The notes under the pieces: model-generated | The model's database searches: none | What the model was told of the DNA's origin: nothing | The model's input: only the letters and a program-made list of their open reading frames with translations | Shown here: in pieces, positions 56,494 through 59,700 of the stretch | Numbering within the stretch: position 1 is the stretch's first letter | How the letters are laid out: each line of letters starts with the position of its first letter | From: Bacteroidota bacterium | Lineage (GTDB): Bacteria > Bacteroidota > Bacteroidia > B-17B0 > Aurantibacillaceae | Reading direction: 5' to 3' | Assembly (NCBI GenBank): GCA_013697245.1 | Contig: JACCXH010000010.1 | Location: forward strand, 62,001 to 126,000 | Length of the DNA stretch: 64,000 bases | Translations under genes and position numbers: made by a program

Positions 56494-57261
56494 TTACGCC
56501 TTGTTTTGTGTAAAGCTTGCGCCCAGATACTCACGGTTCATGCGCGCTATATTCTCCAATGAAATACTTTTCGGGCACTCTGCTTCGCAGGCGCCGGTAT
56601 TCGTGCAATTACCAAACCCTTCTTCATCCATTTGTTTTACCATGTTTAATACACGGTCTTGTTTTTCAACTTTACCCTGTGGTAATAAAGATAGCTGAGA
56701 AACTTTTGCGCTTACAAATAACATTGCACTTGAATTTTTACAAGCTGCAACGCAAGCACCACAACCAATACAAGCCGCTGCATCAAAAGCAGTATCAGCA
56801 TCGTCTTTAGGAATTAAAATATTGTTAGCGTCTTTTGCATTACCCGTATTAACAGAAACGAAACCACCGGCAGACATAATTCTGTCGAATGAAGAACGAT
56901 CAACTGCAAGATCTTTAATTACAGGAAACGCAGCGCTTCTCCATGGCTCAACAACAATAGTGTCGCCATTTTTAAAACTGCGCATGTGTAACTGGCAAGT
57001 AGTAACTCCGCCTTTTGGTCCGTGCGGACGGCCATTAATGTACATACTGCACATACCACAAATACCTTCGCGGCAATCATGATCAAACGCTATTGGCTCT
57101 TTACCACTACTTATTAATTGTTCGTTAACTACATCAAACATTTCTAAAAAGCTCATGTCTGGCGAAATGCCTTTTGCATCATAAGTTTCAAAACGTCCCT
57201 TACTGTCTTTGTTTTTTTGTTTCCACACTTTTAGTGTGAGGTTCATATTTCCGTGTTCCAT
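56494..57261 (-). CDS. sdhB: Succinate dehydrogenase/fumarate reductase iron-sulfur subunit
   Basis: It carries the three Fe-S clusters that pass electrons from the flavoprotein to quinone. The 255-residue protein has the plant-type 2Fe-2S ligands (CREGICGMC ... C), the 4Fe-4S set [11 protein letters not shown] and the later [12 protein letters not shown] motif. The ATG at 57261 is one base from the left inverted repeat of the inserted element; an internal ATG (MNLTL, six codons later) is an alternative. It belongs with sdhA and sdhC in one complex (complex II). Confidence 0.95.
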
Positions 57262-57697
57262 ATAGTTAATAGGGAATAGCGATTAGGCTATGCCGCTTTT
57301 ATTAGTGTAATTTTTTGTTGAACGCTTTTAATTAATCCTTGAAGAATTTTTCCTATTTCCTCAATTTTTTTATTTACTTCTATAAATTCTTTTTCGTTAA
57401 TGTAATTTAGGTTTTTAGAAATTAAAATCATTGCTTCAACTTCCATTAAAGAACCTCTTGAAACTCTTAAAAATTGCAGATAATTTTTTGATAGTTCTCT
57501 TCCCCAACCCTCTGCAATGTTTGATGGAATTGAGATGACTGCACGATTAAGTTGACTTACAATTCCAAATCTTTCATCAGCAGGAAAAGTTTTAGTTAAT
57601 GCATATATTTCTGTAACCAATTGAATGGATTTTTGCCAAACAATTAAATCTTTATATGTAGTAATTTTTCCTTCCATTTCTAATCCCTATTAACTAT
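57262..57697. mobile_element. IVS-like insert with inverted-repeat ends
   Basis: ATAGTTAATAGGGA (57262-57275) and its exact complement TCCCTATTAACTAT (57684-57697) flank the four-helix-bundle gene. The left copy abuts the sdhB start codon and the right copy lies about 14 bases past the sdhA stop. The arrangement fits a small insert of the type found as intervening sequences, which usually carry this protein family between inverted repeats. Confidence 0.6.
57288..57677 (-). CDS. Four-helix-bundle protein (23S rRNA IVS-type)
   Basis: The 129-residue protein (TIGR02436-type) has the family motifs TYKDLIVWQKSIQLV, RFGIVSQLNRAVISIPSNIAEGWGR and the four predicted helices. Homologues are best known from intervening sequences in 23S rRNA genes and from small mobile-like insertions elsewhere in Bacteroidota; no enzymatic activity is established. 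Here it interrupts the sdhA-sdhB pair, on the same strand. The IR-flanked context suggests recent or ancient insertion. Confidence 0.88.
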   Translation of the reverse strand: MEGKITTYKDLIVWQKSIQLVTEIYALTKTFPADERFGIVSQLNRAVISIPSNIAEGWGRELSKNYLQFLRVSRGSLMEVEAMILISKNLNYINEKEFIEVNKKIEEIGKILQGLIKSVQQKITLIKAA

Positions 57698-57711
57698 TCG
57701 CTAATAACAAA

Positions 57712-59700
57712 TTACGCATAGTTCCTCTGAGCCAACTTAATATTCTCAAATTTCAATTCTTCTTTATGTAATTCAAAGTTGCTTTCTCCTTTGTATTCCC
57801 AAGCGGAGACAAAAGCAAAATTATCGTCATCGCGTAAAGCTTCGCCCTCTGGGGTTTGGTATTCTTCTCTAAAATGACCGCCACAACTTTCGTTTCGGTT
57901 TAAAGCATCTACGCACATCAGTTCACCTAGTTCGATAAAATCGGCAACCCGTCCTGCTTTTTCTAATTCTGCGTTTAGTTCGTTATTAGTTCCAGGTACC
58001 CTGACGTCGCTCCAAAATTCTGCCTTTAGCTTCTGAATTTCAGCAATTGCCCAAGTTAAACCTTCTTTGTCCCTCGACATTCCACATTTTTCCCACATAA
58101 TTTTCCCTAAGCGTTTATGGAAATTATCAACCGACTTGGTTCCTTTAATTGCAAATAATTTATCAATACGCGCTTGCACTTCTGCCTCTGCTTTTACAAA
58201 AGCTTCATTATCGGTTGGTATAGATTTAGTGCGGATTTCTTCGCTTAAATAATCGCCGATCGTATAAGGAATAACAAAATAACCATCGGCTAAACCTTGC
58301 ATTAATGCAGATGCTCCCAAACGGTTAGCGCCGTGATCGGAGAAATTTGCTTCGCCCAAAGCATACAATCCCGGAACCGTTGTCATTAAATTATAATCTA
58401 CCCAAAGGCCTCCCATTGTATAGTGAACGGCAGGATAAATACGCATTGGCATTTCATAAGGATCTTCATCGGTAATTTGTTTGTACATATCAAACAGGTT
58501 ACCATATTTCTCTTTCACTACATCTTTTCCTAATGCGCGAATTTCTTCTTTACTCGGATTGTGTAAATTTTTCTTGTTCGCTTCTATCTGACCATAACGC
58601 ATCATGTTGGCTTCAAAATCAAGATACACAGCCATTTTAGAAGTTCCCACTCCGTAACCTGCATCACAACGCTCTTTGGCGGCACGGCTTGCAACGTCGC
58701 GCGGCACTAAGTTACCAAAGGCAGGATAACGTCTTTCCAAATAATAATCTCTTTCCTCTTCAGGAATATCTTTTGCTTTGCGTTTATCATCTTTTTGTTT
58801 TGGCACCCAGATCCTTCCATCATTACGTAATGATTCTGACATCAATGTCAACTTAGATTGATGATCGCCTGAAACAGGAATACAGGTTGGATGAATTTGT
58901 GTGTAACAAGGATTTCCAAAGAATGCGCCTTTTTTATGTGCTTTCCACGCAGCTGTGACATTACAACCCATGGCGTTGGTAGATAAATAAAACACGTTAC
59001 CATAACCACCGGTGCATAATAATACTGCGTGACCAAAATGTCTTTCCAGTTTTCCGGTAACAAGGTCGCGGGCAATAATGCCTCGGGCTTTACCATCAAT
59101 GGTAACAACATCCATCATTTCGCGACGCGCTAATAATTTAACCGCGCCCATGCCAACCTGGCGTTGTAGCGCGCTATAAGCTCCTAATAATAATTGCTGG
59201 CCCGTTTGTCCTGCAGCGTAAAATGTACGTTGTACCTGTGTTCCACCAAAACTGCGGTTACTTAAAGTTCCGCCGTATTCGCGGGCAAACGGTACGCCTT
59301 GTGCAACACACTGATCAATAATATTTCCTGAAACCTCAGCTAAGCGATGAACATTGGCTTCGCGGGCACGATAATCTCCTCCTTTAATAGTATCATAAAA
59401 TAAACGGTAAACACTGTCGCCATCATTTTGATAATTTTTTGCGGCATTAACACCACCCTGTGCAGCAATAGAGTGCGCACGACGTGGCGAATCCTGGAAG
59501 CAAAATACTTTTACTTTGTACCCCATTTCGGCTAAAGAAGCTGCGGCCGAAGAGCCTGCAAGGCCTGAGCCTACAACAATAACTTCTAAGCTACGTTTGT
59601 TGGCAGGATTAACCAGATGAACAGTTGAACGGTATTTTGTCCATTTATTCTCTAAGATACCTTCAGGAATTTTTGCATTTAATTTTGATGAAGAAGCCAT
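57712..59700 (-). CDS. sdhA: Succinate dehydrogenase/fumarate reductase flavoprotein subunit
   Basis: The 662-residue protein carries the FAD-binding [19 protein letters not shown] (about 41-60), the covalent-FAD histidine segment ([13 protein letters not shown]), the active-site regions [10 protein letters not shown] and [13 protein letters not shown], and a C-terminal helical domain. It oxidises succinate or reduces fumarate. The large size and the b558-type cytochrome partner are typical for Bacteroidota. ATG at 59700. It follows sdhC after a 31-base gap, and is followed by the IVS-like insert. Confidence 0.95.

Follow-up and report, generated by a model that had tools for sequence, protein, structure and literature searches.

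A four-helix-bundle gene of the IVS/S23 family between inverted 7-bp repeat arrays in the sdhA-sdhB gap: a probable compact mobile element

The analysis of a 64,000-nt window (the whole stretch of DNA studied, whose positions give all coordinates below) from a 4.44-Mb Bacteroidota genome reveals that a gene for a four-helix-bundle (FHB) protein lies between sdhA and sdhB, framed by two inverted arrays of 7-bp repeats. We consider it probable that this insert is a compact mobile element of the intervening sequence (IVS)/S23 family (PF05635), whose FHB protein recognises AG-core arrays at the element's own ends. The wider result is the architecture of the arrays and their association with the protein family, a combination that recurs in many bacterial phyla. 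The family is very common in Bacteroidota, with a match in 157 of 198 genomes, yet its model names rarely appear in the literature, and the arrays give a testable substrate, and hence a testable mode of action, to a family known mainly from rRNA inserts.

On the minus strand the gene order is sdhC, sdhA, the FHB gene and sdhB, and the element and its host genes are laid out as follows.

57288 to 57677, minus strand: FHB gene, 129 amino acids, PF05635 / TIGR02436 (profile matches; relatives of solved structure)
57680 to 57707, minus strand: upstream array of four 7-bp units, TTATTAG CGAATAG TTAATAG GGATTAG in the direction of the FHB gene (direct reading)
57262 to 57286, minus strand: downstream inverted array, ATAG TTAATAG GGAATAG CGATTAG when read inward on the plus strand (direct reading and inverted repeat)
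57262 to 57275, plus strand: exact 14-bp repeat ATAGTTAATAGGGA, part of the downstream array (inverted-repeat and genome pattern searches)
57684 to 57697, minus strand: inverted partner of the 14-bp repeat, part of the upstream array (inverted-repeat and genome pattern searches)
57712 to 59700, minus strand: sdhA, flavoprotein subunit, upstream host gene (open reading frame and family match)
56494 to 57261, minus strand: sdhB, iron-sulfur subunit, downstream host gene (open reading frame and family match)

A reading of this DNA from its letters alone (the sequence-only reading) had described an IVS-like insert with exact 14-bp inverted repeats around an FHB gene set between sdhA and sdhB, the left repeat touching the sdhB start codon, and all of this was confirmed, position 57262 directly adjoining the sdhB ATG. 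Beyond that description, the 14-bp repeats, which can be extended to 18 nt with one mismatch (57262-57279 and 57680-57697), are part of longer 7-bp arrays. Both sides of the element carry the same or nearly the same units, inverted and in differing order, and the upstream array starts (57707) 4 nt past the sdhA stop codon. A search for further copies of ATAGTTAATAGGGA in the genome gave one forward and one reverse match (reversed control pattern 0) and so none elsewhere, because other elements carry other units. The protein scored 133.8 bits against PF05635 (cut-off 33.8) and 125.8 bits against TIGR02436 (cut-off 24), which places it in the proposed IVS-protein family, with relatives of known structure in 2gsc (E 5e-22) and 2rld (E 1e-4); a solved relative is a homopentamer. 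The ratio of nonsynonymous to synonymous divergence (dN/dS) of the FHB gene was 0.03-0.15 in 14 of 15 orthologous pairs, the remaining pair being undefined. Strong purifying selection therefore acts on the gene, which appears functional, and a gene of this kind lodged in an energy-metabolism cluster looks selfish. No anti-phage defence model of PADLOC matched the element (0 families), and an Rfam scan of 56900-58100 returned nothing beyond one chance-level match.

The same anatomy was found well outside the sdh locus. The window's genome holds five FHB genes with differing flanks, and in four of them the left arm resembles the inverted right arm more closely than the 95th percentile of cross pairs (L002 falls below). 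Across the genus, PF05635 matches were obtained in 32 of 40 genomes, and the arm comparison, which used 77 of the 78 FHB genes found in the loci read, gave a mean score of 14.1 for own pairs versus 8.3 for cross pairs, with 50/77 own pairs scoring higher than the 95th percentile of cross pairs and 25/77 higher than the 99th. In the wider set beyond the genus (123 FHB genes found, 108 with enough flank), own pairs exceeded the 95th percentile in 18 of 30 further Bacteroidota, 25 of 40 named Bacteroidota (loci drawn as the best 80 among the matches listed) and 33 of 38 elements from other groups, which include Planctomycetota, Rhizobiales, Desulfobacteraceae, a cyanobacterium and a Methanophagales archaeal assembly.

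The internal structure of the arms was investigated by scoring a 7- or 8-bp period against shuffles in 140 elements, one per 75% identity cluster. Significant periodicity was present on the left in 97, on the right in 100, on either side in 121 and on both sides in 76, compared with 8 of 140 control stretches located 590-700 nt upstream. G exceeds C in 88/97 significant left arrays and C exceeds G in 82/100 significant right arrays; at either end, therefore, the strand read inward is usually the G-rich one. The median distance from the upstream gene's stop codon to the left array is 0 nt (n = 85), and that from the right array to the next start codon is 5.5 nt (n = 88). An AG that recurs in phase was seen in 137 of the 181 arrays analysed for cores (142 of period 7 and 39 of period 8), against 26 for the complement CT, and the letters outside the AG core differ from element to element.

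The placement of these elements is similarly constrained. Genes on both sides of the FHB gene are co-directional in 73/77 cases in the genus, 65/70 in Bacteroidota and 26/43 in other groups (11 of these 43 having no called neighbour on one or both sides), and an FHB gene antisense to two co-directional neighbours was seen once in 190. Sites also recur: one junction accounts for 13 copies, two others for 9 each and sdhA-sdhB for 6. Six Rhizobiales loci carry an element at one recurrent junction, presumably nuoC-nuoD judging from the protein ends. When the best 30 Rhizobium loci of 100 genomes were inspected by eye, 15 held full elements of three repeat types, 3 gaps held a right arm only and 12 were without an evident element. 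The presumed nuoC-nuoD gap (L269-L298, L139, L163, L181, L183, L185 and L186) was observed as a recurrent site with several repeat types.

Filled and empty versions of the sdh site itself were compared within the genus, where SdhB is present in 40/40 genomes, 30 loci were fetched and sdhA was in reach in 29. An FHB gene occupies the gap in 6/29, neither gene nor array is present in 18/29 (4-81 bp), and an array of 80-86 bp without an open reading frame (ORF) is present in 5/29, as judged by eye; in G011, outside the 30 loci, a partial FHB match lies immediately before sdhB. The sequence-only reading was to be abandoned if all relatives carried the gene at this position with no empty site, and close relatives do show empty sites (15-16 bp gaps in L009-L012). 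Five of the FHB proteins at sdhA-sdhB are mutually 71-89% identical, and the sixth (L020) is 29-36% identical to these. A tree of sdhA and sdhB places the filled genome G009 among four empty ones, as the sister of the empty G012 (support 100/98), the deeper forks being weak. Moreover, synonymous divergence (dS) was lower for FHB than for sdhAB in 10/10 pairs of the five orthologous elements (0.57 and 0.95, respectively, between the window's genome and G009), and these values, near saturation and from few sites, hint at transfer or recombination of the element. The sdhA 3' end of filled G009 was seen by eye (L013 versus L008-L012) to be nearer to that of the filled window genome than to those of its empty sisters, as if flank and element might have arrived together.

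The type of repeat tends to follow the clade of the FHB protein, though exceptions exist. Clade-specific units occur at a single recurrent site, where L004, L085 and L091 are of the GTTTCTT type and L054, L087 and one L079 copy are of the TTTCGGGTTA/ATTTATT type, and across phyla, where L137, L138, L154 and L159 have AAGGGGTC/AAGGATTC units in common. For pairs at different sites, left-arm similarity was 8.0 at 45-55% protein identity (371 sampled), 9.0 at 55-65% (305 sampled), 12.5 at 65-75% (46) and 10.8 above 75% (6). A permutation test in which left arms were set against the inverted right arms of other elements gave 0/1000 (rho 0.28, 78 named loci), and arm similarity rose with identity from 7.2 to 11.0 (rho 0.29, 73 loci). 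Paired nearby FHB genes of different subfamilies, with different arms, were observed at one site in L045, L079 and L089.

We propose that one FHB gene between two inverted 7-/8-bp repeat arrays, each with an AG core and an element-specific remainder, would make up the element. It occupies the space between two genes of one direction, lies in that direction and reaches from stop codon to start codon, and probably depends on the host transcript for expression. The FHB protein most likely binds the arrays as DNA ends, perhaps with one repeat per subunit, and the bound protein may mark or join both ends for integration or upkeep. What is conserved between the two sides is the unit, in inverted form, and this is what one would expect if a DNA element had binding sites at its ends. 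We infer the binding of the arrays by the protein, DNA rather than RNA as the substrate, and the route of movement outlined here.

Several observations weigh against this proposal. The element encodes no transposase, its sole ORF being PF05635 with no transposase family among the Pfam and NCBIfam matches, and no enzyme of any other kind, and an RNA-borne route would be a competing means of movement. Arm pairs do not exceed the cross-pair threshold in 27/77 genus elements, no significant array was found in 19/140 elements, and AA (102/181 arrays) and TA (99/181) also recur in phase. Neither exact junctions nor target duplications were found at the sdh and Rhizobium sites compared, where empty gaps are too unlike filled ones for junctions to be placed. 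L090 is 78-82% identical to four FHB proteins of one other site and has arms unlike theirs, and control flanks likewise become more alike with rising protein identity, though less so (6.9 to 7.6, rho 0.19), so that part of the repeat-protein link is kinship or base composition. Finally, arrays exist without an FHB gene. ORF-less arrays of one unit type were found at 10 places in 6/40 genus genomes (reversed pattern 0), and in 400 kb of G001 plus the window 14/148 gaps were periodic at p <= 0.05, where about 7 were expected.

These gene-less arrays bear most directly on a different reading, which takes the arrays for host repeats that arose, as the short tandem repeats of cyanobacteria do, through polymerase slippage, and the FHB genes for inserts that simply happen to land within or next to such repeats. 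Eight of the ORF-less places could be judged on both sides and have co-directional neighbours in every case (a contig end or lack of evaluation removed the other two), and no FHB remnant was detected in the ten loci. Several of the 14 periodic gaps are plainly arrays; seven of the 14 reached p <= 0.01, and none of these seven is at an FHB site sampled. Their units resemble FHB arms of the genus, with a same-genome FHB element as best match in only 1/7, and because of this a tie to a resident gene is not supported. Heptamer direct repeats described with no FHB link (PMC4679880) also fit the slippage reading, which we nevertheless regard as unlikely: a significant period is far commoner in FHB flanks (97 left and 100 right of 140) than in gaps in general, the arrays are inverted across the two sides, and their type tends to track the protein clade across phyla. 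The ORF-less arrays may be relics, non-autonomous copies or older targets. Intergenic examples in G001 include L234:2304-2382, L242:4849-4938 and L248:4978-5145, 7-bp arrays whose best FHB arms are mostly those of other genomes. Scans under strict criteria, run on the window and on 400 kb of G001, yielded no 7- or 8-bp arrays, the window scan being too insensitive to recover even the sdh element's own, and the notion drawn from them that arrays are confined to FHB genes was rejected on the gap-based test.

An equally improbable account is the one advanced in the sequence-only reading, in which the two arms base-pair within the sdh transcript and the insert is excised by RNase III as in 23S rRNA. 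The arms are indeed paired in the predicted RNA fold, the Coxiella 23S IVS, which has tandem heptamers and a terminal stem, is cut by RNase III in vitro (PMC4990558), and orientation is nearly strictly sense, for which a need for host transcription is a possible explanation. The stability of the whole-insert fold, however, is no better than that of shuffles (z -0.01; 48/100 shuffles fold at least as well). A selected transcript stem should tolerate G-U mismatches more on the sense strand, and no such excess was found (113 vs 118 in 100 elements; 59.4 vs 60.9 in 49 clusters). When the unit order of the right array was shuffled and its match to the left array rescored, left and right arrays showed no register match beyond the common unit (17.7 vs 17.5 shuffled, p = 0.52, 88 elements). 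An apparent register match in 87/100 elements was discarded, since the segment had been chosen by its own alignment and the match was gone under whole-array shuffling. The IVS link of the insert is right; the RNase III mechanism has no sequence support on these stability, G-U and register tests, although the insert might still be cut in the cell. Very unlikely, in our view, is a resident regulatory gene whose FHB protein, bound to the arrays, regulates its own expression or that of its neighbours, a role with which strong purifying selection, recurring sites and arrays beside start codons would agree, but which sits poorly with 18/29 sdhA-sdhB gaps lacking gene and array, with FHB subfamilies about 30% identical in the same gap of different genomes, and with two-sided arrays that an operator does not need.

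The mobile-element reading can be set beside known systems. With 23S rRNA IVSs carrying an S23/IVP ORF, the sdh element has in common the protein family and the design of one ORF between complementary ends (here 18-nt arms with one mismatch). The Coxiella 23S IVS also has tandem heptamers (GACAGAT) directly before its S23 ORF, as well as a 28-bp terminal stem (PMC4990558), and rRNA inserts of candidate phyla radiation (CPR) bacteria carry IVP ORFs (PMC11270868). In contrast, the sdh element lies between protein genes and not in 23S rRNA, FHB elements have two-sided 7/8-bp AG-core arrays whose order is unmatched between sides, and none of three conserved 23S motifs was found in the collected FHB loci. 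IVP genes are also described in cas loci, for example between cmr3 and cmr2 (PMC3936711); the arrays would explain such genes inside unrelated gene clusters, and from the present anatomy we infer that the cas-locus genes are inserts.

Repetitive extragenic palindromic (REP) elements with RAYT genes combine a gene with inverted repeats of its own on either side, and gene-less relatives of them occur at other places. FHB elements share both features; unlike RAYTs, the FHB protein has no match to a transposase family in Pfam or NCBIfam, and the repeats are 7/8-bp units in arrays rather than single palindromes. The ORF-less arrays do not extend this likeness to a REP/RAYT-like tie with a resident gene, given the single same-genome best match noted above. 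Short heptamer repeats (TAACTGA) of Beggiatoaceae, cyanobacteria and Bacteroidetes are likewise 7-bp tandem intergenic units near start codons, but they are mostly direct repeats of one fixed unit, and the part of the paper available does not mention an FHB gene (PMC4679880). In literature searches that left out subscription papers and preprints, no paper listed reports arrays around FHB or IVP genes in its title or opening abstract, and the portions of papers using the family model names describe no flanking inverted arrays.

The arrays may further link rRNA IVSs with Avd of diversity-generating retroelements (DGRs), whose kinship with PF05635 is noted in PMC10053308. The fold family is homologous and the FHB protein matches Avd models weakly, below their cut-offs (NF033474, 34 vs 80 bits; PF22296, 36.6 vs 40 bits), and the direct neighbours of the FHB gene at the sdh locus are sdhA and sdhB, not a reverse transcriptase. 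Avd loci of Bacteroidota have a one-sided upstream array with a grammar similar to that of FHB arrays. As a tentative and wider possibility, PF05635 and Avd proteins could be ring-shaped readers of AG-core repeats spaced 7-8 nt; together with inverted arrays they might form an undescribed class of transposase-less mobile elements that enters co-directional gaps at stop codons, DGRs would share the array grammar at the end of the target gene, and rRNA IVSs would be only the best-known members.

Some side observations concern the Avd flanks, which had been chosen as a negative control and whose upstream side was not negative. Among Avd loci over the cut-off, upstream periodicity reached p <= 0.05 in 7/11 and downstream periodicity in 0/11; these loci are mostly of one genus, and one of the seven periodic ones (L306) is AT-rich. 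The one-sided array lies between the end of a presumed variable target gene and avd in L299-L301, L303, L304, L307-L309 and L311, and consists of CTG at a spacing of 7-8 nt (CAG in the opposite strand) with the polarity of a right arm. At the sdh locus of one draft genome (G027:C176:3423-4158), sdhB appears in two frames, through either an assembly error or a frameshift.
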